Source: Branchiostoma floridae (Eukaryota; Chordata; Leptocardii; Amphioxiformes; Branchiostomatidae). Taken from it: a DNA stretch of 64,000 bases. A program made the translations under genes and the position numbers. The first letter of the stretch is position 1. Each line of letters begins with the position of its first letter. The DNA lies in NCBI RefSeq assembly GCF_000003815.2, contig NC_049997.1, positions 13,394,261 to 13,458,260 of the forward strand, in the 5' to 3' direction. The notes below the pieces were generated by a model. It did not search any database, was not told the origin of the DNA, and saw only the letters and a list, made by a program, of their open reading frames with translations. Positions 263 to 35,200 of this stretch are shown here, piece after piece.

Positions 263-2141
263 GTGTGACAATCGTTTTCTTTATATTGAATCATAAATAG
301 ATTAGTTTCTTAGATTTTTAGATACTAGTAACTCATGTAGTGTTCTGTTCTGTATGTGTTGTATGTACAAGTTGCCAAACACTGTATCCTCTACAGTTGT
401 CGTGCCATAAAGTTCTTCTTCTTCTTAAATAGAATGCCAAAGTTTTGCATGGCAAAATGTAAACTCGGATGCATTTCTATTCCATATACTGTAAAATTAA
501 TGTAGAAACTTTCACAGTGGTTTGATGTGAGTTTCCGAGAACATTTTTCCATGGCAGTAAGACTACATGGTGCTATCGCGAACTTAAAACCACCGTGACA
601 AGTCCTTTTTCCCGCTACCGCGAAATTAAATCCTCAGACGCAAACTTAAATGCATTTACAGTAGTAACGTTAGCAAAGAAATTTGAAATAAAAGCACCAC
701 CTAGTGCCTATCAATGGTACCACAGGCTGTGAATGTAGAGGACTATAACGATAGGCAACTTCATGATTTATGATAGATATTAAGCAAAAGTTTAATAAAA
801 AGGCTAGATCTTTTCTTCACAGTACTTTTAAAATTAAAGATTAAAGAATGATTTATTGAATGTGCCTCTCTGTTAGCTATCGATCAATGGAAATAATCAG
901 AAAGCACTTCTCATGTTTCTACTCAACAGCTTTTGGAGTTTCTCGGAGTGAGCAAGTCCAAGGCCACCTACTACTTAAGAAGAGCAGAAGCCAAGATCGC
1001 TCCATCTCAGGCGGAAAATAAAGAAGACATCTTTGAAGAGAAGCCCGCCAATGACGAGCCTACCAAACCCCAAAATGTGCAAGACTTGTCGAAGAAAGTG
1101 GACATATTTGGCGGTGATGTTGTAGACGAAGCGGATGTCGACCTGTTTGGACAGACGTCATCGAGTACGACAGTAGACGATGAACTGTTTGGGGCAGCAC
1201 CGGTCAAGAAGGTTGATGTCACAAGGTCACAAGTGGTCAAGTTGTTCGGAGAAGAAGATGATGAAGACCAAGAGTTGTTCATTCCTGAGGGAGCTCGTGT
1301 GGAAGCCAAGCCAGAACCAACTGTAGAGGTTTGTTTGTTTGTTTTGTTTGTGTTGCTTTTTGTTATTTGATTTCTGGAAAAAGTGCTTAACCATTATCCG
1401 CCTAAATGTTGAAAAGTACATTTCCGTAGCAACTTCCTTCTTCATAACCTTTTCCATATGTCTGTTCTGCCCATTAGGTAATGGAGAGCATTATTGACTT
1501 TTATTGAAGAATAGAGAATTCTCCTTCCTTCATACACCAGAGAAGTGTTGCTCAATTGCAATACTATGCCTACCTGCCTAAGTGCCTAGGCCAGTGACTG
1601 GCCCCTTGCTCCCTCCGTGATATTTCTCCAGACTGCACGATTCGTCGCACTCATCTCCGCCAACTTTATACTCTGTCCAATGTCCGATGCAATACTTTGT
1701 TGCAACCAAATTTGGATCATCAGATATATGGATTGGAAACAAAGAAAAAAATATGTGGCGTAGTAATGCTCCTAGTGATGCACATGAGAACTGCAATATA
1801 CTAGTAGAAATATTGCTCACTGTATGAATCCCTTCCATCAGGTTGAGGATAACACAGATCTTCTCACCATCGAAGACGACTTGGACAAACTTCTCAACGT
1901 CTCAAAAGAGAAACCAAAGCCATCGCCAAAGCCATCGCCAAAGCCACGCCCCATACCTGCCCCGAGACCCGGGAAGAAGCCGCCGACCGCGCCCAAACCG
2001 AGCCTCACCAAAGCGGCCCGCTCGTCTGAAGATCTTTCCGGAGGTCAGGTCAGGACGGTAGAGTCCATGGGAGATGATGACATCATGAAGTACATACAGA
2101 CGGAGTCTAGTCAGCAGGATGATGATCTTAATCTTTTCTAA
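96..2141 (+). CDS. HS1BP3: HS1BP3 homologue (HCLS1-binding protein 3, PX domain), 3' part of gene, three exons
   Basis: Three plus-strand exons (96-262, 930-1328, 1842-2141) join in phase and encode about 287 C-terminal residues. Order: second half of a PX (phosphoinositide-binding) domain; an acidic linker with four IFG/LFG motifs (DIFGG, DLFGQ, ELFGA, KLFGE); a DDLDKLL segment; a Pro-Lys-rich stretch; and a C-terminus with DIMKYIQ and a final LNLF. Compared from memory with human HS1BP3, the same order occurs: ...LLEFLG, then VEEDLDQIL, a PKPKP-rich stretch, DILQYIQ, and terminal SLF. Family members bind HCLS1 and phosphoinositide membranes and have been linked to lipid and autophagosome regulation. 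The 5' exons with the N-terminal half of the PX domain lie left of the window. The gene converges on the patatin gene. The family call is confident; one-to-one orthology is not proven here. Confidence 0.88.
330..426 (+). mobile_element. Probable 3' end of a LINE-type retrotransposon
   Basis: A block ending ATAAAGTTCTTCTTCTTCTT resembles the 3' tail of non-LTR elements that terminate in a TTC microsatellite. A similar end (AATAAAGGTCTTCATTCTTC) occurs at 18593-18621. No coding part remains. Confidence 0.4.
487..663. mobile_element. MITE, TACTGTAAAT family, copy 1
   Basis: The ends are TACTGTAAAA and ATTTACAGTA. The interior has alternating 'reference to CGCGAA' blocks such as CCGCTACCGCGAAATTAAAT and matches, in opposite orientation, the element at 53511-53722. 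It lies in the HS1BP3 intron. No coding capacity. Confidence 0.7.
930..1328 (+). CDS. HS1BP3: HS1BP3 exon: end of PX domain and acidic LFG-repeat linker
   Basis: Acceptor TCAACAG|CTT, donor GAG|GTTTGT, 133 codons, phase 0 at both ends. It starts LLEFLGVSKSK and continues into an acidic region with IFG/LFG motifs about every 20 residues. Reading past the donor gives only a short T-rich tail and a stop, so the splice is preferred. Confidence 0.85.
1842..2141 (+). CDS. HS1BP3: HS1BP3 terminal coding exon
   Basis: Acceptor TTCCATCAG|GTT; the stop TAA is at 2139-2141; 99 residues. It contains a Lys/Pro repeat (three PKPSP-type units) typical of SH3 ligands, then a Ser-rich segment and the conserved DIMKYIQ end motif. 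Confidence 0.88.
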   Translation, partial: VEDNTDLLTIEDDLDKLLNVSKEKPKPSPKPSPKPRPIPAPRPGKKPPTAPKPSLTKAARSSEDLSGGQVRTVESMGDDDIMKYIQTESSQQDDDLNLF

Positions 2142-2935: not shown

Positions 2936-3159
2936 ACTGAAAATGGAAATGCATTGAACAAAGCTAATGCCTTGCAGATGCAGACATGAATGGAGATGTG
3001 CCCTGGTATTAACTTACTAGTTTTGTGACCTAAGTTGGTTCTAAAATCTGAGGTGTCTACAAAAATCAGCCTAAGTTGTGCAAGAAAATATGGGGAGGGG
3101 AGCTTCCTAAATTATGTTGTTGTTTCTATATAAAACAGGGACGGGATTGTGTACCTGTG

Positions 3160-3780
3160 TGTGGACGGTGTTCAGCACCAGAGACAGGTTTGTTAACAAA
3201 GCTGTGTGGATGGTGTTCAGCACCAGGGACAGGTTAATTTACCTAGCTGTGTGGATGGTGTTCAGCACCAAGGACAGGTTTGTTCACCTAGCTGTGTGGA
3301 TGGTGTTCAGCACCAAGGACATGTTTGTTTACCTAGCTGTGTGGATGGTGTTCAGCACCAAGGACATGTTTGTTTACCTAGCTGTGTGGACGGCGTTCAG
3401 CACCAAGGACATGTTTGTTTACCTAGCTGTGTGGATGGTGTTCAGCACCAAGGACATGTTTGTTTACCTAGCTGTGTGGACGGCGTTCAGCACCAAGGAC
3501 AGGTTTGTTTACCTAGCTGTGTGGATGGTGTTCAGCACCAAGGACAGGTTTGTTTACCTAGCTGTGTGGATGGTGTTCAGCACCAAGGACAGGTTTGTTT
3601 ACCTAGCTGTGTGGATGGTGTTCAGCACCAAGGACAGGTTTGTTCACCTAGCTGTGTGGATGGTGTTCAGCACCAAGGACATGTTTGTTTACCTAGCTGT
3701 GTGGACGGCGTTCAGCACCAAGGACAGGTTTGTTTACCTAGCTGTGTGGATGGTGTTCAGCACCAAGGACAGGCGCATTT
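3160..3780 (+). repeat. 45-bp minisatellite, about 13.5 copies
   Basis: The unit is GTGTGGATGGTGTTCAGCAC followed by CAAGGACAGGTTTGTTTACCTAGCT, repeated head to tail with few substitutions (GGATGGT/GGACGGC, CAGG/CATG, TTTACC/TTCACC). Because 45 is a multiple of three and the unit lacks stops in two frames, two long overlapping open frames (about 3114-3791 and 3206-3802) run across it. These follow from the repeat and are not evidence of a gene. No splice context or homology supports translation. Confidence 0.92.
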
Positions 3781-3802
3781 TCCTTATGTAGACGATGAAT
3801 AA

Positions 3803-6026: not shown

Positions 6027-6200
6027 TTACTGCGGGAGGCTTCTCCTTGGAGCAAAAAGAACGTAGCTCCGAATCGTCTTCCAGTTGTCTTTTCTCTCCT
6101 TGAGGTTGTTGTCTTTGATGTAGGTTCGGAGAAAGGCCCGAGCTCCAATCGCTCCTTGCTGTTGATGGAGGACAGACATTTTTTTCGTCAGTTGATCAGC
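6027..6200 (-). CDS. Patatin gene terminal coding exon
   Basis: Acceptor TATTGAAG|GCT, 57 codons, stop TAA at 6027-6029. It encodes a basic tail (ADQLTKKMSVL ... RSYVLFAPRRSLPQ). It lies 2.5 kb from the previous exon, so this link is the least certain splice of the gene. Confidence 0.6.
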   Translation of the reverse strand, partial: ADQLTKKMSVLHQQQGAIGARAFLRTYIKDNNLKERKDNWKTIRSYVLFAPRRSLPQ

Positions 6201-9014
6201 CTTCAATAAGATGATGATAATAAATTTCCAACAAACTACAACTGGCAGTTCAAAGTCAATGCTTTTTATCTGTGTACTGCCTGGTCCGTCTATCGATCTT
6301 TCAAGTATACAATACAAATGTGGTCATACTCACTGAGCGACTTTTTACACCAAACTCCTGCACATCTACTTAACTCCTTGCATAGCACAATGCTTAAAGC
6401 TATCTAGCGAGGTGCCCCTACTGTATTTGGTGAAAGCGAGTTCCATGCTACATAATCATAAGGAAAAGTGATTTTGAACAATTCGAGCTTTGCTTGTAAC
6501 TATGGCACGTGTAGCCGTAAACGTCCCTTGTTGTTTCCTGATACGTCAATCAGTTTATAATGTTAGTCGTTTTAAACATCATGTATATTCAAGGCACTGT
6601 GTCATGCTTGACTATAAAATCTAAATGACTCAAACCATCAAAAGCTAGAGTTCCACGAACACATATCTTCGCCAAATAAACAATTTTTTTATGAAGATTG
6701 TTGTTTTTGAAATGTTGTTAATTTTGGGAAATAGATATTTAATGAAATGCTTTTGTAATGTGAGTTTTTGAAATTTATGTGTCTTGTTTTGGAATGCAGT
6801 GAATTTATATTGTTTGTGTATTTTTGCCTGCATTTGAAATGCTGGCACAGCTTTTGGTATGTCTGTGTGTGTCTGTCTGTCTGTCTGTGTTTTTTTTGCA
6901 TTTTTGTGGTCAGCATAACTTAAGTATCTTTGGATGGATTGAAATGATATTTGGTATGTGGTATCTTTTTACTTGGACATGGTATGGTTTTCTTTTTTGT
7001 CGGTAGGTTGCAGGAACGTTGGATTTACATGATATTTTGCATATTGTTACTTTTGGTAGAGATGTACATTTTAAATTGTCAATTATGCAAAGTTGGAGTT
7101 AATTAGCATGCTTATTTAGGATGATCTTATTTTAATACAATTAATCTTATTGTCGGACTTATTTACAGGTAACAAGCTGTAGCTTGTATTTTTCAAGTGC
7201 TAACTTTTTATATTAGTGGTTAGAATAGACGTACATTTTATAAGTCTAAAGATAAGCTTAGATGTGAGTGTAAGTACATTATAGTGTGCAGTACTTTCCT
7301 CACATTTTCCGGGAGGCAGCTAGTGTCACAAATTGAACAGAAGTAAGAAACCACACAGTCTCTGATAAGCTAGCATTTGTGGGTTTTCTTCTATCAGGGA
7401 AGAATAGACACAGTAAGACTGGCTAATCTATCAACCATAATGTAAACAAACCCATGCCAGCTGCAGGCTTGCACTCCATTTCAAACCTGCAGACTCCCTG
7501 GGGTTTCTAAGAGAACCATGGTTGTAAGTTATTTCTAAGACCAAATTTGTCAAGCGTTACCACAAGGAAAACATACATGCAAGCAAGTGTATAATGCAAC
7601 TGCATAGTTACTTATTCCTGCCTCCCAATCCCATTGTCAGATACCCTGTGCCTATGTAGTCACTGTGTTCCGAGTTTCCCAACAGGAAAACAATGCTAAG
7701 GTGGCTGAGGATTAACCTATGTACCAGTTGTTAATGTACGGGTCAACCGTAACTAATAGCTGTGGCAGAGAGCATTAAGGCGAGCTTTTGACCTACATCT
7801 AAAGACACCAGCTGTGGCGCACATGTATGTACCACCCTATATGCTTCTGCAGTATATTGCAGTTTATTAAATTTCCCTAAGTAATTATATTAAATAGATA
7901 CTGATTTACATAATTTGCATCTCATTATGTTCATAATCACCTAACAAAAACAAAGAATCCTACAATCCCCTCTGGAGTTATCCTTCGCAAAAGTTACAAA
8001 CTATAAGACCCACTGCAGTTCCAAATAAGCTGCTAGGTGGCCCAAAATTACACCATTTACTCCTAGTCCCAACAGCTATCCACCACTTAAAAATCATGAG
8101 CCTGGCACTTCTGGAAAATTTAGGCGGAAACTTTGACGCTCACTTGCAGTACCAAAACAAGTCGCCAGGAGGCCCATTATCGATTTTGACCTTCCTTTCT
8201 GTGTCCCCTACCTATCAACCAAATATATTAACCATCCATCAAGAACATCTCGAGTTATCTTGCATACAGACAAACGCACTTACATACAAAGCCAGCTACA
8301 GCACCATAGGTAAAAGCTAGCTAAACCAATATCGCACATGACCACAACCGCTACACACCTGCCGAATATCGTGGAAATCGCCCAGCTGCGTTTTGACTTA
8401 TGCTTCCCGAAAAAAAAACTCGAAAACAATAACAACTTCGCTACTGTACCATAGGAAAACGCCAGGTAAACCATTTTCGAACTAGGCATATCTTTTGACA
8501 ACCTCTACACACCTGCAAAAAATCAAAAACTCCCAACCTCAATTTCTCGAGTTATATGCTGTTGACCTACATACAGACCCAAGTCGACAAAAACATAATC
8601 TTCGCTGGCGAAGATAACAAGTTAAACGTAAGGGATCAGCTAACATCTGTAGCATACATGTACTTGTCACCATATGTAGCTTGTTTAAAACTCTACCTTG
8701 AACAGAAAGAGTTTGTCCTCATCCTCCAAGTCAAAATCTGTTGTATTGACGTAGTCGCTGTCCACGCCGATGCACCTCTTCACATCCTGGTCCTGCAATG
8801 CAATTTTCATTTCAATCAAAAATTTATGCGCCAGAAATTTACTCTTCATAGAATCTATTATGTTACAAAACTGAGAGAAATGCATGGATAGAAATGATAA
8901 TGTTTTACTATTTTATTCAAAAAAAAAAAAAACTTCAAATGATTATGAAATACCCCTCCAAAAATGCTAATAGGTATGCGGTGTTTATTGTTTGTTTGTT
9001 CGTGTTTATTTCTT

Positions 9015-9057
<43 letters not shown>

Positions 9058-12000
9058 ATTCGTGCGTGCGCGCGCGCCTGTGTGTGTGTGTGAGACAGAG
9101 AGAGAGAGAGAGTACGCATGGGTGAGAGTCAGTATGTGTACACGTTGATGTTGCCGGTGACAACTTAGTACAATCATTTGTTGTGATCCCCACAAATTTC
9201 ACCCATGTTCTGAATATCAACAAAAAAAAACAGTACCGACCTTGCTGTAGGCTCTCTTCCCCATGACATCCAGTAGTTTCACGTACTTTAAGGTGTAATC
9301 TCCCAGCCCCACAGTCTCTTCCTCCATACAGCGTGTCAGCCAGCTGTAGCCCTTGTTGGCGAAGAACTCGTGGATCTCCTGGTACGACAACTATTTACCA
9401 GGAGATTTGTATAAAAAGGTAAAATTGCACATCATCGACTTTAATTTCTCAAAACTACAAATAAATGATTTTGTATATCCCTACATGGATGAATAGGCTT
9501 TTTCCAAACCAATCGAAAAATTACGTTTTCAATCTTTGACCATATTGGCCATTGCTGACAGTTCTAGTCGATAAGTTAGCATTCGAGTTACAGATAAATC
9601 AAATACTTGACGATGACAAAGACCAGAATGGTTATAAAAATCCCTTTCTTTTAATGAAATAACGAATGATCTTTACATCAATGTTTACGTCCATGTTTAC
9701 CGTTATGTAACGTTACATCTAAGAATTTTTTTTCTGAAGCAAGACGGGAGAATTTCAGAAAAAAATTCTGCTTACCCAAATTCTCCACTGCCAATCTCGA
9801 GAGCTCCAGTCTTTGTCAGATTACATTTCAACCTTACTTTGCAATCATTTCTATACAATTCAAACTTTGCAGCTAAGGGCGCATTGAACAGAGAAGTCTA
9901 TGCAAAATTCACACTAGAAAAGATCCAAACTGTGACTTGATAGTATGATAAATATTAACCTGTCCATCTTTGTCGGCATCCATTTGGTCGAAGAGTTTGT
10001 CAACTTTGTAGGCCTCACCAAAAAGTTTCTTCTTGTCTTCTTCCTCCATAGAGCTGTCGCCTGCCTATAGGATATTTCATTATCATATTTGTCATTAATT
10101 TTGTTCGTTATTTTCCATACAAGATAACAAAGGATTACAGATTATCATAAGGGATATTCTACCCTGAACTATAGGGCTATAATTTTGTCTTGGCAATTAC
10201 TTCTCACCCAAATCGCTTTTAAGTTTCACATTTGTCACAAATTGTTAATGAGTGCAATATATCATTCTCCTAAGCAGAGGAACCACAGGCGTATCGAAAC
10301 TCATTGTGGTCACCTCTGCTGTCTGGTGCACTCAGATGAATTACTGACCGCCCTGCTTATGAATATTAATAAGCTTAAACTTATATGGGCAGTCAGCCGT
10401 TGGGGATCGGGCATAGGAGGATGGAGCTATGTAAGACGTAACATGGTTGGCCTATAGCTTCCCAGCGGCCTTTGCGAGATGGCTTTCGTAAACAGAAAGC
10501 CCAAGAAAGGCCTATTCTCTGATTGGCTGACAGCTGTTTTGTGGCGGCAATCACAGTAACCGCTGGTAGACATCCAGACAGCAGGGCCCCAATAGGCTAA
10601 TACCGTTGGGGACCGGGCGTAGCAGGATGGCAATATATTTACCTCAGTAAAAGCTCTGTGTAGCTCGTCCCTGCTGATGGTTGAGTTCTGTTCAGTGTTT
10701 TGCTCCTTCAGACTTGTCAGAAACCTGTCGATGAGGCTGCGCATTTTCTTCCTGTTCTCCATGGCTTCTACGGTCTCAAGCCTCATCTTGTCTTTGTACT
10801 TCCTACGATAACAACACAGATGAACAGTTATAAACTTACCTAAATCCGTCCTGCAAGATGCGTTGGCGCTGGCCTGCCTTCACCAACCAATCACGTCGAG
10901 GCCTACGGCCAAAAGGCAACGTGATTGGTCGGTAACGTTCCCTCCAACAACAGAAGGGGGTATCTGATTGGTTGACGGCTGATTAGCGCTTACGCAGCAG
11001 GGAGGAAAGATCGTATACGTAGGCCGGTATGCAGTGGCATATGAGAGATCATTAGGGAATGGCCACTATCATACATGTTTCTCTCACCTTGCAGTCTCTG
11101 TGTCGGGCCTCTTACTCTCGTATTCTCTTTCTTCCTGGCTCCGACGATCATGGAATTTCCGTTGGAACTTCTCCACATCTTCGTCAGAATACTGAAAAGA
11201 AGCAAAATGTAGCACGTCATTCGAAAATAAAACGACATGCATATTTACAGAAATTTGCTTTCCTTTTTTTCTCTGTGAATCAGTTATACAGTGTCATTTA
11301 TGGACATTGCTTCTTAATTGCCGTAAGTTTACTATCTGCGTTATAGCCGTATGTTTATTATCTGCGTTGGGAAGTGCTCTATACTAAACATACATGTACC
11401 ACATCCTCCTACGCAGGGACATCTAACGACGAAACCGTCTGTCTGGATTTACCCTGCTTTCTTAACCGTCACCCTTCGTTCCTGTGGGCGTCGCCCCTAA
11501 CCAGCTGTCAGCCAATCAGAGAATAGGGCTTTCAGTTTTCAAAAGGGATCTCACATCTCTTGGGCGGTTAAGAACTAAGGGTGACGGTTGAGAAAGCAGG
11601 GTACATCCAGACATGTACAGGCGGTTTCGTCGTTAGATGTCCCTGCGTATGAAGATGATGTACCCATCGCCCTTGTCATATTGAAAACTCATAACTAACA
11701 ACATAACGTGTACTTACGAGCATGACTCCGAGGGTCCTATCCGTGTCGTCTTTATCATAGTGGAAGCGGTTGGACGGGTGCATTATGCTGCTGAGGTTGT
11801 CGAGATTATCCAGCCTGTTGAGGAGAGAATCCTCTTCCTTCATAGACAGCCACCATCCTGGTGCGCAATCATTACAGACATTTATTATGAATATTCACAT
11901 CCATAAGGTTATATGTCAGAGTAGAGACTGCAATCCGAGAGAATCACCGACTCTACCGGTACAGATCCCCATCGGAGACATTTTGAAAATCTTAAGATAA

Positions 12001-15000
12001 ACGAACTGTTAACTGAAAAGTTCAATTTGATTACTTACAATCAATAGATTGACTTGAATCTTAGGATTTATAAATGGTAGATCACCCGATAAAAGCGTCA
12101 TGTGTGGAAAAGAAAATGACGCCCAATTGCAAGTTATCTTCAACTGCACCTAAATACAATTTTTGATCTTCCTCGTATCTATCTAGGGTAGTATGCTCAA
12201 TGCATATTGGCAAAGTATGTTTACTTTTGAAGATAATTGCTACTTTATCAATGAAGACATGTCTACATTTACCATCGAAGCAGTGGAGGGGAAAGTTGCA
12301 GATGACGCCGCCGTCAACAAAGAATTCTTTGGAGCCGTGACAGTCATCTAGAACTGGTTCAAACAGGCCTGCATGGAATCACCATGGAAACACATGTCAC
12401 ATGTTTGAAAGTCCTATTATGGGCATCCCATCCTCCTACGTAGGGACATACAACAGCCAAACTGCCTGGCTGGACGTGCTCTGCTCTTTCAACCATCGCC
12501 CTTAGTTCCTGACCGCCCTGCTTATAAATATTAATGAGTTACCCTTATACATGGGAGACAGCTTTTGAAAACGGAAAGCCTATATTCTCTGATTGTTTGA
12601 CAGCTGGTATGAGGTTGACGTCCACAAGAACTAAGGGCGACCGTGAAAAGAGCAGGGTACATCCAGACAGGCAGTGTAGCTGTTGGATGTCCCTGCGTAG
12701 GAGGATGGGGAATCCTAGACGTTTCTATAACCATTTATGCAAATCATGTACTGATTTACATGTTCTTATCATATCAAGCATTACCTAAGCAACTTATACA
12801 AATAAACTTACTGTCAAAAGTCATCATAATCCATTTTAAGTTAGCGTCTTCAAGATTTCACACAAAAAGCCCCTGGCAGATCAGATCAGACCGAATTGAC
12901 TTGAACATACGGTTGTTTAAGTTAAACGGTGCTCTGTCTCAAATAAAAGAATAAAATGAAAGAATAAAAATCATTAGGGTATCAATAGATATCTTGTTAG
13001 TTAGCAATGTCACTATTACCGTCCTTCACAAGTTGGTAACAAGTTAAAGTTGGACATGTTTTTTTTCCTAGGTCACCGGACTATATGTTTTATCTTTTAT
13101 ATGGCTAGCCCCTGAGGCGTCGCCAAAAATATGTTAAAAATGTGCTGACGTTGAGAAAACGTTTTTTTAGCTTACCAGGTATGGACATGGACATCCTGAC
13201 GGCTTTGCGGACAGGAAGGTCTGGCGTGGTCTTGACATGACAGCACTCTTCCGTTAACTGGTCCAGGTTCGTCACCACGATGCAGAGTTCTTTGCACTTG
13301 AAATCCATGTCGTACAGCTGGAAGATGTATATGGAGCGTTTCAGTTCTTTTTCCTTGTACATGAAGCAGAACTATTGAATGATATTTTTCAACTCGCAAG
13401 CGAGGAAGCCAATCTACCATCTATTTGCACTGTATCTCATAGTAAGATGTACCGATGTACCGGTATACAAAACCGAGTTTTCTTGTTGGACTGGTAAGAA
13501 AACGGACCTAAAAAATCAGTAGACCGGATTTTGGTCAAATAGAAAGACCCGATTATGTCGGCAAGGGCATACACGTTTTGGCGCTTACCGGTCCAAGACA
13601 ATAACAAAAGCAAAGTAGAGTATACTAGTAGTTTATAGGCATTTCTACCAAATTTCTACAGTCAAAGGCACAGAGGCAGTTAGCCTTGTTCACACAAAGA
13701 CAGTTTTTTTAGTCAGAAACTCCACCAAACAAATCCTTCATCTTGTCAGCAACAAAAGCAAGATTAAGAACGTACAATACCCTAGTCTGCAACCGCCCGA
13801 TGTCGATGACGACAACGATTATAACGATTTCAACATTAACTGTATTAACCCGCAACCTAGAGGGTTATTTTTTCACTCGATTGAGTAGAAAAATGACACC
13901 AGGCATGCTTTAATGTAAGCTTAAATGTCGTATTATGCGTAGGACGTCATACCTGCTTAAATGTGATGTCAGGGTTTCCGGTGTATTTTTCCAAGATGTC
14001 TCCGAGGAATGTATACAGACCGTCTCCTCTCTCCCAGCCATAGCGCCGGAACAGATTGATAGGCTTGACCAATTTCTGCAGAAACCCCCCTAATTATATA
14101 GAGGATTGTAGTCTGTTAGAAATGCTCTGTTTGAAGCCGGCCTATCATACTGATATAATTTTCAAGCAGATGCTACGGTAGCATAAAGTAGTATCAAAAA
14201 GTGTCAGAGGAGTGAAGTGCCACAGAAGTGTGTAGGATCTGCTTGGAGATTAGCAAGCACACTCCTAGGCCGGCTTCACTCCTCTGCCAGCATTTGCTAC
14301 TATCTTATGCTACCGTAGGACCTTCTAAAAAAGCGACACTTCCATCAAAATCTACAGTTTAGAGAAGGATGACATTCTGAACACGTACCGGAAATAAGAA
14401 TTTCGCCAATTTCTACGCTCGCCTGTTCGGCCACTTCATGGCATTTGAGTCCCAGTGCCACCAGTGTCGCAGTGATAGCGCCAGCACTCACTCCTGCCAC
14501 CCGCTGGATTTTGGGGAGAACTCCAGCCGTCTCCAGAACCTTAGATAGATAAGAAAAGCATGGGTTTAGTCAGCTTCAATGACTCCTGAAAAGCAGACTG
14601 TAGCCTGAGTGATGTAACTCTGGTAAAACGAGATAAAATGAAATGACCACTGTGTAGGACTGGTTTCATCTCCCTGAAGCTGCGGTACCTTTGCGGCCTC
14701 GCTGCGGTATAACGATTTGACAGAGCTTCATCGACAAAGATATTCTCAAGCTTTGTGTGCTGTTTTTAATATTATCTTTTGTATGATACTTCCACTGTAA
14801 AATTAAGAGTAAAACACGAATCCAATTCAGGCCACGTACAGCGACGACATCAATTACGTGCCGCAGTTTCAATGAGATACCTAATCTCCAGGCAGATCTA
14901 TCGGTGACAAAATAAGTTAAGCTGGCAAAGGAGTGTTCTGAACCATCGGGGCCTTAGCACTCCTTGGCCAGCTAACACTGTCTGTTCCTGTACATATACG

Positions 15001-15328
15001 TTATCATATTTGGTATGAATCTGCATAGAAATGATCCCTGGCCCATGAACCAAACGCTCTATAAGAAAGGATAAGGGTATAACCTCCTTGGTGTAATCAA
15101 CTCGTAAGGAAACAAACCAACCCGAAGGGTCCCGACGTACGCGACTCCTCTGGCACCGCCTCCTTCGAACACCAGGTTCTCAAAGGGGAAATCGTACTTT
15201 AAAAATTCGTCGTCTTCCTCCTCATCTATTTCCGTCAAATTCAGGACCCGAACCTCCTGCTGATCAGGCCATATTTTCCTCATCAGCCTCGTCATCATCT
15301 GCTGTCCGGCTGTCCATATGTTATCCAT
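6027..15328 (-). CDS. Patatin-like phospholipase with C-terminal EF-hand pair, 12 coding exons
   Basis: Spliced product of 553 residues (554 codons with stop). Exons, 5' to 3': 15122-15328 (coding part), 14389-14539, 13953-14089, 13176-13317, 12273-12368, 11718-11857, 11088-11191, 10643-10802, 9960-10064, 9241-9390, 8697-8792, 6027-6200. Patatin domain, residues about 50-250: glycine-rich oxyanion loop GGGARG (56-61), nucleophile elbow GVSAG (Ser87), KTTPDLPVRKAVRMSMSIPG, and catalytic Asp231 in VDGGV, followed by FDGWWLSM. Patatins hydrolyse acyl esters of lipids with this Ser/Asp dyad, so activity is expected. Residues about 345-375 form a degenerate EF-hand and 408-419 a canonical one (D-A-D-K-D-G-Q-L-S-Y-Q-E). 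No signal peptide or clear membrane segment, so probably cytosolic. I recall no human PNPLA protein with EF-hands. The start is the first ATG after the 5' UTR exon. Confidence 0.85.
6201..8696 (-). other. Last intron of the patatin gene
   Basis: No coding exon was recognised in this 2.5 kb. It contains a CTGTCTGTCTGT-bearing dispersed repeat at about 6850-6970 and otherwise AT-rich unique-looking sequence. Confidence 0.5.
6850..6970 (+). repeat. Dispersed repeat with CTGTCTGT block, copy 1
   Basis: TATGTCTGTGTGTGTCTGTC leads into a CAGCATAACTTAAG-TGGATGGATTG-ATGATATTTGGTATG block. The same blocks occur on the minus strand at 63480-63585, so it is an interspersed element of unknown class. Confidence 0.55.
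8697..8792 (-). CDS. Patatin gene exon 12
   Basis: Acceptor TTGCAG|GAC, donor AAG|GTAGAG, 32 codons, acidic (DFDLEDEDKLFLFK). Without splicing the frame ends after three more codons at 8685-8687, a possible minor alternative end. The spliced version to 6200 is preferred because the next exon continues in phase. Confidence 0.72.
9017..9112. repeat. GT / CG / GA compound microsatellite
   Basis: About twenty GT units, a GTGCGTGCGCGCG segment, more GT and then a GA run. It lies in the patatin intron beside exon 11. It creates open frames on both strands that are not genes. Confidence 0.9.
9241..9390 (-). CDS. Patatin gene exon 11: second half of EF-hand
   Basis: Acceptor GTAAATAG|TTG, donor AAG|GTCGGT, 50 codons. 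It begins LSYQEIHEFF, completing the loop with Glu419 at position 12, and continues into an uncharacterised helical region. Confidence 0.82.
9960..10064 (-). CDS. Patatin gene exon 10: first half of canonical EF-hand
   Basis: Acceptor CCTATAG|GCA, donor CAG|GTTAAT, 35 codons. It ends with FDQMDADKDGQ, the entering helix and calcium-loop positions 1-7. The intron splits the EF loop. Confidence 0.82.
10250..10635. mobile_element. Degenerate member of the CATCCTCCTACG element family
   Basis: It shares the interior GACCGCCCTGCTTA-GAATATTAAT with the element at 12427-12709 and CTCTGATTGGCTGACAGCTG with the one at 11401-11656. It ends GGGCGTAGCAGGATGG, a diverged terminus. It lies next to patatin exon 9. 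Confidence 0.45.
10643..10802 (-). CDS. Patatin gene exon 9: degenerate EF-hand
   Basis: Acceptor ATCGTAG|GAA, donor GAG|GTAAAT. The helix-loop-helix pattern SLIDRFLTSL ... STISRDELHRAF keeps Ile at loop position 8 and Glu at 12 but lacks acidic residues at 1, 3 and 5. It is read as a non-binding partner of the next EF-hand. Confidence 0.78.
11088..11191 (-). CDS. Patatin gene exon 8: charged linker
   Basis: Acceptor TTTTCAG|TAT, donor AAG|GTGAGA. It encodes a highly charged helical segment (YSDEDVEKFQRKFHDRRSQE...). Phase 0 in, phase 2 out. Confidence 0.8.
11401..11656. mobile_element. MITE, CATCCTCCTACG family, copy 1
   Basis: Inverted arms of about 80 bp: CATCCTCCTACGCAGGGACA... at the left and the complementary GATGTCCCTGCGTATGAAG at the right. 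The arms include AACCGTCACCCTT / AAGGGTGACGGTT. No open frame. It lies in the intron between patatin exons 7 and 8. Confidence 0.85.
11718..11857 (-). CDS. Patatin gene exon 7: end of patatin domain
   Basis: Acceptor GCACCAG|GAT, donor CTC|GTAAGT. With the preceding exon it gives FDGWWLSM, then a Leu/Asn/Asp-rich linker. Phase 1 in, phase 0 out. Confidence 0.82.
12273..12368 (-). CDS. Patatin gene exon 6: catalytic aspartate
   Basis: Acceptor CATGCAG|GCC, donor GATG|GTAAAT. It encodes GLFEPV and FFVDGGVICNFPL; Asp231 of DGG is the second member of the catalytic dyad. Confidence 0.85.
12427..12709. mobile_element. MITE, CATCCTCCTACG family, copy 2
   Basis: Ends CCATCCTCCTACGTAGGGAC and GTCCCTGCGTAGGAGGATGG. 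Arms include GCCCTTAGTTC / GAACTAAGGGC. It is the same family as 11401-11656, but the interiors differ. It lies in the intron between patatin exons 5 and 6. Confidence 0.85.
13176..13317 (-). CDS. Patatin gene exon 5
   Basis: Acceptor ATCTTCCAG|CTG, donor CCTG|GTAAGC. It encodes LYDMDFK..CIVVTNL and KTTPDLPVRKAVRMSMSIP, a well conserved patatin block. The frame stays open for another 54 bp upstream of the acceptor; that extension is rejected because it would insert residues into the core. Confidence 0.82.
13953..14089 (-). CDS. Patatin gene exon 4
   Basis: The acceptor AATTAG|GGGGG is chosen because it is the one that keeps phase; the nearer CTGCAG site would break the frame. Donor CAG|GTATGA. 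It encodes residues 120-165, including YGWERGDGLYTFLGDIL and NPDITFKQ, typical of the patatin core. Confidence 0.8.
14164..14325. mobile_element. MITE, AAGCAGATGCTACGGTAGCA family, copy 1
   Basis: Inverted arms: AAGCAGATGCTACGGTAGCA at the left and TTATGCTACCGTAGGACCTT at the right. The interior carries the palindromic pair GAGGAGTGAAG / CTTCACTCCTC around CACTCCTAGGCCGG. A second copy is at 40441-40621. Confidence 0.8.
14389..14539 (-). CDS. Patatin gene exon 3: catalytic serine
   Basis: Acceptor ATCTAAG|GTT, donor TCCG|GTACGT; enters phase 0, leaves phase 1. It encodes the nucleophile elbow RVAGVSAGAI (Ser87), directly continuing GTLR of exon 2, as in other patatins. Confidence 0.85.
14885..14990. 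repeat. Short inverted repeat related to the AAGCAGATGC family
   Basis: The pair GCTGGCAAAGGAGTG / CACTCCTTGGCCAGC is flanked by CCAGGCAGATC. It is a diverged or internally deleted relative of the preceding MITE family. Confidence 0.4.
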
Positions 15329-26200: not shown

Positions 26201-29200
26201 GAATAAGGCGACAGTGGTCTTTGAAAATTTGATCCGTGAGTAGTTTTGTGTTGTAAGAAAGTTTAGCATTGTTGTACTATGATTACTACCAACACAGACG
26301 AGCTTCCATGACATACGTATATAGCTCTAGTCTAATGTTGTGCACTGAAAAGCCTCAGAGACTATGTTAAATACATATAACGCTAGTTCACCTTTATCCA
26401 TGGGGTGACCTTTATCCGTTGTCTTTAAAAACAGCACATTTAGGAGTATTAAGCCAGCTGACAGTGTTTTCAAAATTGCAATATTTTCAAAATGTTCCGA
26501 TTTTAAACCACCTTCCGTCGACTTTATATCCCTAAATACGTTTTTTGTACAAACAATAGGTATAGAATATAGGTTACCCTCAGATAAAGGTGAACTAGCG
26601 TTAAACATGTAATGTATCCTCAGCAACTGTCAGAGTGACATTCACATTGAGTTAACTGTAACAATACAACAGTGCCCTCTACCTGTATGGACAGTTCCTG
26701 ACATCTCATGTCCCTCTGATGGACCCCCTCTAATGCCTGTTCCAGGGTTGTCTGTAACTGCTGCATGCTGGTGGTTGTTTCTGCACTCTTAGTAGCTTCA
26801 GCCTGGAAAAAATAGTGCAACAAAATTCAATAAGAAACAAGTTATCAAACATTTCATACCTGTTTTGACATAGTTGGAGATAAATTGAGTCTTTCTGAAT
26901 TAATTGTACTATTTGTTATTGTGGACTCTTTGCTAAGTCTGTGTATGCATTTTGCTACTTTCCTGCAAGACTTTGGACCCAGGCGAAACCAGCTTTCCAA
27001 TCCTGCAAGTCTCCAGTTACATCATTTTTCACCAGACATCCTACGTTACAAAATCAAAATTTGATGTAGATTTGCGCAAGCTGGAACAAAGTTGCACACA
27101 TCAAGGCAACCAAACAGATTGGAAACAATACCTATGTCAAAACACTTTGAAATTTCACTTTTAACAAAACTAAGCCTCAACCAAACATTTGGTACCACTC
27201 AGAAAATAATAGCTAAGACATGTGTGAGAATAAAAGAAGAATGCTGACACACAAAAGAGATTCTATCAAAGAGTTTATACATGTAGATAAAGTTTAGAGT
27301 TTGCCATTCTAGTCTCTACATGGCACAATAACTCACCTCTAGGTCCCTTGTCTGCTTCAGAAGTTCTTTCCTTTCTCTGACAATTTCTTCATACTCCATC
27401 TTGAGAGAAGCTAGCTGCTCATTCCTATCCTCCAATTCTCCCATCTTTGACCACAGCGACTTGACCTCTTCTTCCCTGCTCCTAACTTGCTCCTCAAACC
27501 CAACTTTCTCCACCTGGAATCTTGACAATTCTGCTTCTCTTTCTTGTAGTTGCAGTCTTACTGTGTTAAGATTCCTTTCCAAGTCTTCATACTGTTGTCT
27601 TAGAGATTCCACCTCCTTATCTGCAGTTTCTTTGCTTATTACGGAGTCTTCATATTTTTGCTGGAATGCAGCAACTTCTAGCTTTTCAGTCTGTAGGTCT
27701 CTCACTGCAGCAACGTATTGATCCTTGACAGACTCCAGCTCTTGATTCGCAGCATCACATTCAGCTTGTGCTTGGTCTAACTCTTGTTGCAGTTGGAGGA
27801 ACTGGTCCTGGAGTAAAACTAGCTCCTGTTTTGTCGACTCGTATCTGGCATTCCCATCATCATGCGACTGTCTGAGCATTTCAACCTCTCTCTTTGCTTC
27901 AACTTGCCGACTTTCCCATTCACTCTTTTCCTTTATGATGCTTTCTTGTGCAGAATTTGTTTCTTCCCTCAACCCATCTAATTCCTGTTGTGCTTTTTCC
28001 AACTGGTTTGCTAGGAAATCTTTCTCACTAGCCAAGCTGTGAACGTCACCGTTCAGGTCTTCGCACATCTGCTTTAACCTGTCATTCTCTGCAATGAGGA
28101 TATCTTCCTGTTTTGTCAGCCTCAGATTCAACTCCTCTAGCTCTGGTAACCTTGTCACTTTATTTGCAAGCTGTTCATTCACGGTCTGCAGTTTGTGCAC
28201 TCTCTCTACGAGGATCTCCTTTTCTTCGGTGAATTTTGCGATACTGGAATGTAGATACTCTCTCTCCTCACCGAGATCTCTGTCTCTCAGTTTCATATCA
28301 TCAAGCTCTTCCTTCTGGTTTTTAACACTAGCTTGCAAAGTTTCCACACTTGTCCGCAAGGACTCAACTTCTAGCTGAAGTCGTTGACCCTCTGCTGTTG
28401 CCGCATCCTTTTCCTGTGACAGTGTCGCTCGTTCTGTTCTCAGCTTGTCCAGGACCAGTTCTAGCTCTTCCCTGTCCTTCTCCAAACTGCTCAGTGCATC
28501 CGAATCCACCTTCCCTTCCAACTCTGCCACAAGACTCTTACAGGTGGTGTCCAGCCTTTCCTTATCTTGTACGAGACTTTCGACTTCCTTCTTCAAGTTG
28601 TTGTTCTCTGACTCAGAGGTCTGCTTTGCCCTCTGAAGTTCTAACAGCTGGTCTTTCAGGTCTTCTACCTGGTTCTCTAACTCCCCTTTGTCCCATGATG
28701 CATTCTCTACCTCGTTCCTGAGTATGCTGTTCTCTCTATCCGAAGTGTCCTTGGACTTCTTAAGCTCGTCGAAATCTAGCTGCAAGGACTCCAGCTCACT
28801 CTCAAGACCGTCTTTCTCCATCTCAAGATGCTCCAACTCCTTCTTTAGCTTGCTGCTCTCCATGTCCGATGACTCTTTTATCTTCTCAAGTTCTTCAAGT
28901 TTCTTCTGAAGGGAGTCCAACGTGCTTTGCAGACTCTCTCTTTCTGCTGCAAGATTTTGCATTTCTTTCTTCAACTTTCCACTGTCTTCATCAGCCAAAG
29001 TCTTCTCCTCTTTAAGATCTTCCATCTGGGATTTAAGTGTATCTAACTGATCTTCAAAGTCATCTTTTTCTGTAACCAGCCTTTCCATTCTTGTCTTTAA
29101 CTCTTCGTTTTCCAATGAGAGAGACTCCTTTTCCTTTCCGAGCTTTAGGGTCTCCTCTCCTTTTAACTGGGTATCATGCAGAAGTTTCTTATTCTCATCT

Positions 29201-32200
29201 TCAAGTTTCTTGTTATCACTATTCAGTTTTTCTATGTCACCAACTAAATCCTGATTCTCGGCCTGCAGTTCTTCCATTTTCTGTGAGAGGTCCTCGTTGT
29301 TCTGTGTCAGCTGCTCCATCTCTTTGGCAAGTTCTTCCTTCTCGTTCTCCAGCTTTTCACGATTGTCCTGCAGTTGCCATTTCGTCATCTCCAGGTCTTT
29401 CAGCTGTAGCGCCAGGTTCTCGCGCTCCTGGCGTAACGTCGTGAGCTGGGTCTCCATCGTGTGTCGTAGCTCTTCCATCTGGCTCTTCTCAACCCTATCA
29501 GACTGCTCCTGTGACAGGTTCCTTTCCAGCGTAGCTCGGTCCTGCTCAAGAATGGCCAAACTCTGCTGCAAGCTGTTCCTCTCTTCTTCCACCTGCACCA
29601 TCGCACGTTCCAATTTGTTCTTCTCCTCCTGTTGCTTCTCTAAGCTTTCTTGCAAGGTGTTGCTCTGCTCTTGCAGAAGTCCAAGTTTCCTCTCATACGA
29701 CATTCTGTCTTCTGTTGACTGAGACAACTTGTTCTCGACCTGCTGTTTGTCTTCATTGAGCAGACTGAACCTAGCTTCCAATTCGGATTTTTCCATACGG
29801 AGAGATGAAAGCTGCTCCCTTGTAGCTTCCACTTCCATCTGCAGTGCTTGTATCTTATCTTCCTGGGTGGATTTTTCATCGTGAACTTCTGAGGTTTTTT
29901 CTTCATACTGAACCAGTAAGGTCCTGAATTCCTCTTGCATCGTAGTCATTTGTTCCCCTAATGCTATTTTTTCTTGTTCAAATCTTGACGCTTCTTTAAG
30001 TTTCTGGCCTAGTGTGATATTCAACTTCTGCAGCTCAACATTGCTTTCTTCTATCTTTGCTATATTTTGCTGTAGGATTGTCATTTGTTCCCCTTTCATG
30101 GGTGACTGTTCCCTCTAGCTCATTCTTTTCTTCCATCAATTCTTTGGCATTCCTTTCCAGGTCAGCTCTTTCCTCGGTATCTTCTTCTTTTCTTGCGCAA
30201 TCCTTCGCATTTCTTCTTTAACTCGATCAGTTTTCCTTTAGCCCCCATGACCTTCTTCAAGGAATTTTTTTTTCCTTCCTCAGTTTGCAACTTTCTTCAT
30301 CTGACTGAGTCTTGCCGCTCATTTGGGTTTCTGCTGTCTCCAGCTTGACTGTGATCTGTTCTTTCTCCATCCTCAAGCTGTGCACTTCCTCTGGGGTTTC
30401 TGTGAAGCTTGTTTCCAGCTGTACTCTCTCAGACTTCACAGATTCTAGCTCTTCTGCCAACCTTTCCCTATCTTCTGTTACCTCCTTCAGACTCTGCATG
30501 TTATTGTTGAGCTGCTCCTCTAAGACACTATTAGACTGTCTTATCTCTGCTACTTCCTTCTCGAGTGCATTCTTCTCTGTAGCAATGGTTGATAACTGTT
30601 CAGCAAGTGTGTGTCTCTCGGTCTGTGCTGCTTCCAAGAAATCGCGAGCATGTCTCAATTCTTCTTGGATGCTCGTCATTTCCTGGGACCAGTTCTCTGA
30701 CTTTTCCATTCTCAAGCTTTCTAACTGTGACTGGAGAGCACTTCGCTCACTTTGGGTGGACTCCAGCTCTTGACTGTATCTTGCCAAGTCTTCTTCCAGC
30801 TTCTGCCTGACACCTTCCAGGCTTTCCATGGAGCTCTGCAGTTTTTGAACCTCGTCTAATGCTGCTGTCTTGTCTGTGTTAGCTTTCTCAAGATCTTCTG
30901 CCATTTTCTCCTTTTCAGACTGAAGAGTTTGGACATCATTTGCAGCCTGCATCAACTGCTGTTGTGCATTCTGATACTCTTCGGTAAGATTTCCTATGGA
31001 AATGCTAAGATTTTCACACTCCTTTGCTTCTTTCTCTCGTGCCACATTGCTTTCTTCAAGTTGTATTGAGAGATTTTCTTGTACAAATTTACTTGTGTTA
31101 AGCTGCTCATCCCTTTCTTCTAGTTGTACCATGAGTGTTTTTCTCTGTTCCTCAGTGTTGTTGTACTGTGCTTTCCACTGTTCTAGTTCTTCAGCCATCT
31201 TGGATCTTACTTCAGAGAAGCTAGCATCCATGTTAGCAACGGTCTCTTTTTCTTGCTGCAGTGCCTGAAGATGCTGCCTCATAGTTTCCATGGCTACATT
31301 CTGCTCTGTGATCTGATTGGTCAACACTTCCACTTGCTCTGCTGCTCCACTCAGCTCTTTTATCTGATTGGTCAGCTTCTGCACATGCTCAGTAGCTGCT
31401 TCCAGTTCACTTGCCTGCTCACTGATGGCCCTTTCTTTCTCCTCTACGTTGTTTTGACTTTCCTTGAATTTTTCATTCAGCGCTTTCAGTTGTTGGATTC
31501 GTAACTTCAGCTTCTCTTCCAGCTTACCTGCTCTTTCTTGCACCTTGCTGTGTTCTTCTTGTGCCTTTGTCATCTCTTCTTTAGACATGTTTAACTCCTT
31601 TTCAAGACTGTTACATCTCTCTTCCATATCAGTGAGACTATGACTCTTCTTCTCGAGTTCTTCCTTCAATGCTATCACCTGGTTCTCCTGTTCACCATAC
31701 CCCTGTCTTGTGTTCTTAAAGTCCTCCTTCGTTCTTTCAAGATCCTGTAACGCACTTCCAAGCTCAACTTCCTTTTGCTCCAAGACAACCTTCATTTGTG
31801 AAACTTCAGCATTTCTCTCATTTAGTTCCTGAGTGGCTGTTTTAAGTTGACTTTGTAGCTCGCCAACGTTCATTTGCAAAGCTCCCATCTCCGCATTTTT
31901 GTGTTCCAAGTGTGCCGATAACTCAACAAGCTTGGCGTCTTTGCCTGTTAACTCACTAGAGATGGCATCCATCTTGATCTTGAACTCATCGAACATGAAA
32001 GACTTTTCTTCCAGTTCCCTGGTCTTTACGGAAAGCTCCGAAGTCAACGTGTTGACTTGCGAATGCAACTCCTGGACCAATGTCCCGGTTTCCTGGTCTC
32101 GTGAAGACAGCTGAGCCGTCACTTGACCAATCTGTGCGTTCATCTGTTGGAGAAGAGTTTCCTTTTCTTCGACCAGCTGGTTTCGCGCAGACAGTTCTGA

Positions 32201-35200
32201 TGCAAGATTGTTCAGCTGAGAGTTCAACTCTTGAGCAAGCATCTCTTTCTCTTCAACAGTTTGCCTCATCGTTGAGATTTCAGATGTAACACTGCTGAGT
32301 TGGGACGTCAGTTCTTGTGCCAACGTGTACTTCTCTTCTATAACTTGATCTCTGTTGGCTATGTCTGTACTAAGGGCACTCAACTGAGTATTCAACCCTT
32401 CTAGCACAGTTTCCTTTTCCTCAAGGACTTGATGTTTTGCTGACAACTCTGACGAAAGGTTGTCAAGTTTTGACTGCAACTCCTGTACCAGGTTGTCTTT
32501 CTCTTCCACAATATTCTCCTTTGTTGTCAGCTCTTTTGCAAGGCTGTCGACTTTTTCACTCAGTTCTTGCAACAACTTTTCTTTTTCCTGGACGTCTGTT
32601 TCTCTTTCTGCCAACTGAGTGCTGATATGGATGATCTCTTCCTTAGAACTTTGCAACAAGGATTCAGTTTCTTGCACAAGCTTTGACTTTCCTTCTAATT
32701 CTTCATCCAGTGCTTGTATGCGACTTGTAAGTTCTTGTACCATTCTCTCCTTGTCACTAAGTGCTTGTGTCCTTTCATTCAACTCTGTGTGCGTTCTATT
32801 AAGTTGAGCTTCAAGAATCTCATTTGAAGCTATCCCTTCTTTCAGCATACTTAGCTCTTCTTGCACTTTATGGAGGTTGGATTCTCTTTCTCTTAGTGCG
32901 TTATCCCGTTCTTGTAGCTCTGCACTTAAGCTTTGTATCTGCATTTGCAGTCCCTCTTTAAGCATGTTTGATTCCTCTTGTAGTCTTGCAAGGCTTGAGT
33001 CTTTCTCTTGTAAGATGTTTTGTCTTTCTTGTAGTTCAGTTTCAAGTTTGTGAAGTCTGTTTTGCAGTTCTTCAAGAGTCGATTGCTTCTCTTGAAGTGT
33101 CGCATCTCTGTCTTTGACCATGGCATCACGTTGCTGCAGTTCTGCAGTTAAGTTCTGCACCTGTTGGTGCAATTCTGCAGATGCACCTTGCTGTTGCTGG
33201 AGTCCTGCTGTCATGTTTTCTAGTTGTTGCTGCAATCCTTGTGATTCAGATGTCTGTTTCTGCAATTTGTCAGTCAATTGCTGCACTTCTTGCCTCAATT
33301 CTTCTGCACCAGTTGTTTTTTGCTGCATTTCAACAGTGGTATTCTGCAATAGTTGCTGCAATTCTTGTGCACTTGTCCTTTCTTGCTGCAGTTCAACAGT
33401 GAAGTTTTGCACCTGTTGCTGCAATTCTTGTGCAGAACTTCTTTCTTTCTGCAATTCAGCAGTTGTGTTTTGCACTTGTTGCTGCAATTCTTCTACTGTA
33501 CTTGCCTGCTGCTGCAATTCTGTAGCCATGTTTTGCAACTGTACATGTGCTCCCTCTAGTGAACCAGTCTTTTCCTGCAGCAAATTTTGCACCTCTGCAA
33601 TTGCAGCTTCCTTCTCTTTGACGTTTTGCTCCCAATTCTGCAACTCCGTATTTCGAGACTCTAACTCCTCCTGCAGTGATCCAACTCTGACTTCTAGTTC
33701 CTCGGTAACGGAAGCCTTCTCTTGAATCCTTTGGTCCCTGTCTCTGAGCTCGTCCTTCAAGGATTCTATCTGACCATTCAAGGTGTTGACTTGACTTTCC
33801 ATGTCTTGTATTGCGGATCCCTTTTCTTGCATATTCTGGTCTCTTGCTTGTAGTTCTGTATTCAAAGACTCCATTTGCTGCTGCAGTGAAGTCACTTGAT
33901 TTGATAGATCAGTGATTGTGGAATTCTTTTCTTGAACAGTCTCATCTCTTGCATGTAGTTCTGTCTTAAGGGTGTCTATGCCATCCTGCATTGTGCTTAC
34001 TTTCTTTTCTAAAGCTTCTTCTGCCGTCACCTTCTCTTGGAGGGTTTGTTCTTTAGTTTGAAGTTCTTCTTGTAGAATTTCTGCCTCCTTCTTCCACTTG
34101 CTCACCTGAGTTTCTAGGTCTTCCACATTTGATTTCAGTTCTTGTAGGGTTTGGTTCTCGTTTTTAAGACCCTCGATGAAGCTCTGGAGGGTCCCCACTT
34201 CTTTTCCGAGTTCCTCAACTTCTTGGCTCTTTTCTTCTCCAAACACCTCTTTGTTCCTCAAGTCGCTGGTTAGTTTCTCTACTTGGCTCTGAAGCGAGAT
34301 GATGTGGTTATCCTTCTCACTCATAAGCTCTTGCATGTGTGCAAAGTCGGAAGACATGTCGAATACTCTCTGTTCCTCCCTCGCAACTTTTTCCTGGAGG
34401 TCTTCGACGGAGACGGTCTTTTCTTTGATCTCTTCATCTTTGCTGGCGAGTTGAGTCTTCAGCTTGTTGATGAGGGTGTGGAGAGTGGAGACTTGTTCAC
34501 CTTCCTCTTCCAGCTGTATCTGTAGCCGCTTCAGCTTGGCCGTTCGGTCTTCAATCTCTTCATCTCTTGAAGTGACTTGAGTCCTATATCAAGAAAAATA
34601 TGATTTTTATGTGATAGTCTACCTACATGTACATAAGTCATTGCCTTATTAATACATTTCATACAATTAATACATGCAGTACTGCCCATGCTATTTACAT
34701 CTCAGATCCTTTGAAAATAACTTCAAATCTGCACATAACATTTTCCGAAGAAAATTTGTTGTTGCGAGAACTTAAACAGCTTTAAAAGATTATCTACAGT
34801 ATACAAGATTACTTTTTTAATAGCTTAGTACATTTGTAGAATACCTTATTCATATAAAATCACACCATGTTGTTTTCTTGGTTATGACATTCTATTGGTA
34901 GAAATTTATCAAGAGGACAACATGCTTATAGAGCCCTTAAAGTAAAACTACACAGTGACTCTGACTGTATATTGTACAATGTATGTTCCAAGGTAGACTT
35001 TCCCTTTAGACGTTGTTGATAATATTTGGCATATTATTATCAATAATAATATCCCAATTTAGCACTATCTTTTTTTGGATTCAAGCACCAAGAAATGATT
35101 TGTGTGACCAAGTTTGAAATGACAAACCTCAGTTCATTGGTCTGAACTTCTAGCGCCCTTCCTCGTTCCTCGTGCTCCGTCAACTTTGCCAGCAGCATCT

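Follow-up and report, generated by a model that had tools for sequence, protein, structure and literature searches.

The window analysed here is a stretch of 64,000 nucleotides from the amphioxus Branchiostoma floridae (contig NC_049997.1, positions 13,394,261 to 13,458,260), and all coordinates below are positions within it. On its minus strand, at 15328..6027, lies a gene of 12 exons that is predicted to encode a patatin-type phospholipase or lipase with a pair of EF-hands set inside the patatin fold. When the gene was rebuilt from the raw sequence, GT-AG boundaries were found at 11 of 11 introns with consistent phases. A preliminary description of this DNA had stated that every splice phase agrees and that an intron splits the EF loop, and the rebuilt gene bears out both. 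The product is 571 amino acids (aa) long with the junctions of that description and 539 aa with two corrected acceptors; residue numbers refer to the corrected 539-aa model unless stated otherwise. The exons are as follows.

15122..15328, minus strand: exon 1, start codon, N-terminal segment and GGGARG oxyanion-hole motif (splice model, residue map)
14389..14539, minus strand: exon 2, nucleophile elbow GVSAG (splice model; exon conserved in paralogues)
13953..14089, minus strand: exon 3 (splice model)
13176..13317, minus strand: exon 4, corrected acceptor 13317, 13371 in the first model (profile gain; paralogue exon starts)
12273..12368, minus strand: exon 5, VDGG (splice model, residue map)
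11718..11857, minus strand: exon 6, ending in the last core strand TLGVML, residues 286-291 (splice model, bacterial profile, residue map)
11088..11191, minus strand: exon 7 (splice model)
10643..10802, minus strand: exon 8, a helix and EF-hand 1 (splice model, Pfam; conserved in paralogues)
9960..10064, minus strand: exon 9, first half of EF-hand 2 (splice model, Pfam, loop residues)
9241..9390, minus strand: exon 10, EF loop 2 positions 8-12, exiting helix and start of the patatin tail, DYTLK... (single uninterrupted frame)
8697..8792, minus strand: exon 11, regulatory strand, lid loop and start of the C-terminal helix (splice model, profile, shuffles)
6027..6158, minus strand: exon 12, corrected acceptor 6158, previously 6200, C-terminal helix, tail and stop (profile gain; QG start in 7 of 13 distant models)

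For exon 4, the acceptor at 13317 is more likely than the one at 13371, and for exon 12 the acceptor at 6158 is more likely than the one at 6200, judging from homology. Both corrections preserve the frame and drop 18 (exon 4) and 14 (exon 12) residues, none of which has a counterpart among bacterial relatives in a profile comparison. The match to the bacterial profile rose from 202.9 plus 15.7 bits in the first model to 218.1 plus 28.2 bits in the corrected one, a total gain of 27.7 bits. Nine close paralogue loci and 11 of 13 distant models match the corrected start of exon 4. The same 13 distant models open exon 12 with QG, as the corrected model does, in seven cases, while one differs and five lack exon 12, and several of these scores are low. 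Because the corrected peptide was the query, the paralogue chains lean towards the corrected acceptors. The 54 bases 5' of the exon-4 acceptor contain in-frame stops in the paralogue C5_14.92; in C3_23.18 they contain no stop, yet are unlike the extra residues of the first model. Of the three junctions named in the preliminary description, 11718/11191 and 10643/10064 were retained, while 8697/6200 gives way to the acceptor at 6158, which the profile gain and the QG start favour. Introns of the gene also carry palindromic, mutually similar repeats (11396-11663 and 12427-12710, plus a 56-base arm at 10505-10560), with, for example, arms 12427-12511 and 12625-12709 that are 85% complementary, and 83-base copies that are 77% alike; these look like miniature inverted-repeat elements.

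Pfam Patatin was detected at residues 52-259 of the 571-aa model (E 3.1e-27, 96.4 bits against a cut-off of 27.7). The sequence hallmarks of PF01734 are present, namely the glycine-rich oxyanion motif, the GxSxG serine, and the DG[GA] aspartate.

15146..15163, minus strand: GGGARG oxyanion-hole motif, residues 56-61 (residue map, exon phases)
14480..14494, minus strand: GVSAG, residues 85-89, with catalytic Ser87 (residue map)
12307..12318, minus strand: VDGG, residues 230-233, with catalytic Asp231 (residue map)

By sequence profile the patatin domain is complete, including its C-terminal strand, loop, and helix, with profile positions 4-316 covered. The product is predicted to act as a patatin-type phospholipase or lipase with a Ser-Asp dyad. 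A Pfam scan of the 571-aa model at E up to 1 found no C2 family.

The EF-hand pair was recognised as EF-hand_7 (PF13499) at residues 380-442 of the 571-aa model, with 31.2 bits, just above the cut-off of 30. With both Pfam families above their cut-offs in one frame, the earlier claim of an intact patatin domain and EF-hands in a single protein stands. The loops map as follows.

10664..10699, minus strand: EF loop 1 (NTEQNSTISRDE), residues 361-372 (residue map, loop residues)
9960..9980, minus strand: EF loop 2 positions 1-7 (DADKDGQ), residues 408-414 (residue map)
9376..9390, minus strand: EF loop 2 positions 8-12 (LSYQE), residues 415-419 (residue map)

EF loop 2 (DADKDGQLSYQE, residues 408-419) is canonical, with D1, D3, D5, G6, a hydrophobic residue at 8, and E12, and is interrupted by an intron after position 7. 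The first EF-hand had been called degenerate; its loop is indeed atypical, but possible ligands are still found at positions 1, 3, 5, 9, and 12. An EF-loop pattern has a single match in the protein and was found in 20 of 5000 shuffles. With the pattern rare in shuffles and the two EF exons retained in paralogues, the EF match is not a product of chance. The pair is predicted to bind calcium.

The relation between the two domains was resolved with a profile built from 84 bacterial and phage patatins. These came from 95 relative loci, nine of which had no open reading frame (ORF) by the motif used; 84 of the 86 with an ORF passed the length filter, and in one search the relatives are the best 80 of 385 confirmed. 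Profile positions 4-242 correspond to residues 48-309 and positions 243-316 to residues 439-512, so that two blocks adjacent in the profile lie 129 residues apart in the protein, with the EF-hand pair in the gap. The second block scored 37.9 bits, compared with at most 7.3 among 2000 shuffles (1418 with a reported score). This places the EF-hand pair after the last core strand and upstream of the closing strand, loop and helix of the patatin fold, which in VipD make up the regulatory lid segment.

9319..11137 (introns included), minus strand: inserted module, residues 310-438, between profile positions 242 and 243 (profile alignment, shuffles)
8721..8777, minus strand: RCIGVD strand and TTDF lid-like loop, residues 470-488 (profile; correspondence to VipD 371-386 inferred)

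Because the Pfam Patatin match in the 571-aa model ends at residue 259, reading the domains off a list would give the impression of a plain C-terminal fusion. An end-to-end fusion of patatin and EF-hands was ruled out, as the bacterial profile resumes downstream of the EF-hands. A MAFFT alignment hid the insertion by laying the bacterial tail against the EF region, and the profile search resolved the placement. A Pfam scan at E up to 0.01 found no EF-hand in any of 68 bacterial relatives, hand-chosen from the set for alignment and scanning with similar ones left out. A query of the insert and tail gave no match in plasmids at E up to 1. In viral contigs, an alignment-based scan reported nine loci, all with matches inside query residues 29-301 and none in the insert, while a single-sequence pattern scan confirmed no relative there. 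The sequence evidence gives good support to a patatin with a nested EF-hand module. The preliminary description had the patatin joined to the EF-hand pair, which holds in that there is one gene and one frame, but the join is a nested insertion, and the gene is a member of a multigene family.

A protein search of the same genome returned at least 87 exon matches, the window's own included, from the scoring of 80 of 223 candidates; querying with only the insert and tail returned 57 matches, all 67 candidates having been scored. Grouped by position, leaving out the window's own four rows, these form 22 clusters, of which 13 have at least one of exons 8-10 and eight have all of exons 8-11. This last count may be too low because the grouping divides one gene on C3. 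Matches to exons 8-10 are 40-74% identical to the window gene. EF loop 1 has Asn at position 1 and Glu at position 12 in 8 of 8 loci (the window, C5_14.92, C3_23.18, C3_21.02, C3_29.17b, C10_6.51b, C15_15.1, and C10_13.09). EF loop 2 starts with DADKDG, DANKDG, or DVDGDG in seven of the eight, C10_13.09 being unreadable there, and its second half, with Glu12, was read in four (the window, C5_14.92, C3_23.18, and C15_15.1). PF13499 was found in C5_14.92 (32.0 bits) and C15_15.1 (36.7 bits), and Pfam found no EF-hands in C17_13.63 or C19_8.40. The ratio of nonsynonymous to synonymous substitution rates (dN/dS) in exons 8-9 was 0.09-0.23 in seven of nine pairs, which suggests that the EF exons are mostly under purifying constraint.

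Two further observations concern patatin loci of this genome. Met-Gly occurs within exon 1 in six of the nine loci with a modelled exon 1 (L147, L144, L114, L122, L123, and L126), at the first residue in three (MGNVHS, MGGCCS, and MGVRQA) and at a later Met in the others (MGNFYS, MGQTQS, and MGGGES); the window gene has none. These sequences resemble N-myristoylation signals. Separately, L099 (C4:8.73 Mb, 1016 aa) and L100 (C6:16.05 Mb, 926 aa) are long open frames with a different class of patatin, preceded by an N-terminal region in which a RING-like motif rich in cysteine and histidine was seen by eye.

A tree was built from 19 amphioxus loci and 15 bacteria over 217 columns, with six of the 25 amphioxus loci, including two fragments of a single gene, left out for having too few catalytic exons. 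The amphioxus loci group together (94), and EF-bearing loci lie on both sides of the family root: the window clade occupies one side, C10_13.09 and C15_15.1 the other (79). The latter two adjoin a clade of 11 loci (100), and all 13 group together (92); the six-locus window clade as such carries no support value. The root is approximate because the bacteria are not monophyletic after rooting. In the inserted stretch of the sister clade, no EF-hand is recognisable: in 11 of 11 loci the interval from exon 6 to exon 11 lacks a recognisable EF exon (best profile score at most 4.9 bits), and none of the 11 has a half loop ending at a GT donor. The profiles gave 68-114 bits for exons 8-9 in six loci, each of them a profile member or identical to a member, and 24.2 and 14.1 bits for C10_13.09, which is outside them; sister-clade models of exons 9 and 10 scored 0-23. 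On the exon and half-loop results, an earlier label of these genes as carrying a decayed EF-hand was dropped. Four models among L107-L126 (11 loci) have a loop-like stretch that an intron interrupts in the same phase, for example LDDDGQ/LTTDKL and LDVNGK/LTVDRM (slash, intron). Given EF-bearing loci on both sides of the root, an early gain of the insert followed by later loss would be the simplest reading, and a separate EF gain in two lineages would be less simple. With 11 of the 19 tree loci showing no recognisable EF exon, EF-hands are not needed in every member.

We propose that the window gene encodes a patatin phospholipase or lipase gated by calcium, with the built-in EF-hand pair controlling access to the active site, and we give this reading a probability of roughly 60%. 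Calcium loading would rearrange the EF helices. From the EF exit a single helical stretch connects to the regulatory strand and the lid loop, so the lid would be expected to move and the pocket to open. This movement is modelled by analogy on VipD of Legionella, where Rab5 binding shifts the equivalent loop. Activation by calcium seems more likely than inhibition, the less likely direction. Members of the 11-locus sister clade would, under calcium gating, be calcium-blind. The preliminary description pictured a cytosolic lipase that senses calcium, and both properties are predictions. More tentatively, and at somewhat under even odds, the family may form a previously undescribed class of calcium-gated patatins, possibly annotated elsewhere, in which an EF pair was inserted early between core and lid, the genes expanded to more than a dozen EF-bearing members in the amphioxus lineage, and the EF-hands were lost in the 11-gene sister branch.

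Several observations weigh against gating by calcium. The lid is matched to that of VipD through order, length, and overall fold rather than through individual residues, and the position of the insert relative to the active site is taken from a bacterial relative. EF loop 1 has Asn at position 1 and Ser rather than Gly at position 6, with Glu retained at 12. Three of the seven loci with a recognisable EF loop 2 start are readable there in the first half only. Two near-identical pairs, which differ by few changes, gave dN/dS of 0 and 0.63, and dS is saturated in several other pairs. The sister clade, lastly, has no recognisable EF exon.

That atypical first loop, and the 11 sister loci that keep their catalytic exons, would also suit an insert that serves as a structural or partner-binding module (for dimerisation or docking of a partner), where calcium at most stabilises the fold and gates nothing. 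We consider this unlikely, as EF loop 2 is canonical where read on both sides of the root (the window clade and C15_15.1), and the EF exons are mostly under purifying constraint; dropping the decayed EF-hand label for the sister clade led us to lower its odds slightly further. Interfacial enzymes are often controlled by translocation to the membrane, and calcium could drive such a step here rather than lid opening, much as happens through the C2 domain of group IV cPLA2. The Met-Gly sequences in exon 1 of six of nine modelled loci, three of them at the first residue, would suit membrane attachment, but the window gene has no Met-Gly, and its insert precedes the lid within the catalytic fold, unlike an appended membrane-binding domain. 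We assign this alternative a low probability.

Errors in the gene itself were weighed as well. The introns are long, some contain repeats, and the model was derived from sequence alone, which would be compatible with neighbouring patatin and EF-hand genes having been wrongly spliced together. The preliminary description held that the join was not an artefact of merged frames, and we agree: one open frame in exon 10 runs from the second half of EF loop 2 into the patatin tail, and this tail, downstream of the EF-hands, shares homology with the C-terminal end of the bacterial enzyme that also matches the core. Other clusters repeat the order of exons 8-11 as well, and we regard a false join as barely credible. 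With so many copies in the genome, the gene might also be a pseudogene or a recent functionless duplicate; but 12 of 12 exons are open, splice sites are canonical, catalytic and EF motifs are intact, and dN/dS is low in most paralogue comparisons, which makes this very improbable.

Elsewhere in the window, four other features were recorded.

897-1370, plus strand: 157-aa frame with HTH_10 at 22.5 bits, just below the cut-off of 23.1
3139-3773, plus strand: 45-bp unit repeated 14.2 times; seven mir-2060 precursor matches above the Rfam cut-off (3149-3784), each spanning about two units, place a microRNA family, one of amphioxus, in a tandem repeat
27316-42656, minus strand: very long coiled-coil frames of 932 and 1443 aa, matching several coiled-coil families
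58005-59408, plus strand: single-exon open frame with a rhodopsin-family G-protein-coupled receptor domain (PF00001, 89.7 bits)

If calcium gating is correct, an enzyme type known as calcium-independent would have been made directly calcium-switched, and a calcium sensor beside the lid would be a new coupling of calcium signals to lipid release, with the sister clade as a natural comparison. Among animal patatins, compared here only as Protein Data Bank chains, PNPLA9 (iPLA2 beta, 6AUN) gave no phmmer match to the window protein at E up to 0.1 and a profile match at E 0.0014. It carries ankyrin repeats. According to a review (PMC12871566) and a second paper, it is inhibited by calcium-loaded calmodulin, a separate protein; the review also states that activity and translocation show no calcium dependence in the human PNPLA family. 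The word EF-hand is absent from both papers. Titles and abstract openings in the open-access literature brought up no paper recognised as describing EF-hands in a patatin, which is weak evidence; one candidate, PMC10470789, was set aside, as its EF-hand belongs to PI-PLC.

Group IV cPLA2 (1CJY) differs in that the window protein has no C2 domain (Pfam, E up to 1). In that enzyme calcium enters through an appended C2 domain. The CapV and CapE patatin effectors of cyclic-oligonucleotide-based antiphage signalling systems (CBASS) share the fold and, going by the titles of their structures, are ligand-bound and filament-forming, with cyclic nucleotides as the ligand. The NCBIfam CBASS phospholipase model scored 16.9 bits against a cut-off of 200, and the full-length T4SS_VpdC model 58.9 bits against 1000. 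Closer to the window protein are the bacterial and phage patatin-like phospholipase family proteins, such as those of an Acidobacteria (L007) and a Zetaproteobacteria (L014) metagenome-assembled genome and of viral contigs (L084-L090), which share its catalytic motifs and the C-terminal RT-IDT...TTDF...helix. L007 and L014 are 34% identical to it in the alignment, but the relatives have no such insertion and no EF-hand (68 of 68 scanned). The closest solved relative, both by sequence and by the fold of the bacterial scaffold, is VipD, which has the same core followed by a lid loop that is moved by a regulatory input. That input is the host GTPase Rab5, which a separate C-terminal domain binds, and the section consulted on VipD describes no EF-hand. 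The window protein would extend this switching of patatins through the segment that ends the fold, from Rab5 in VipD to an internal sensor of a second messenger.
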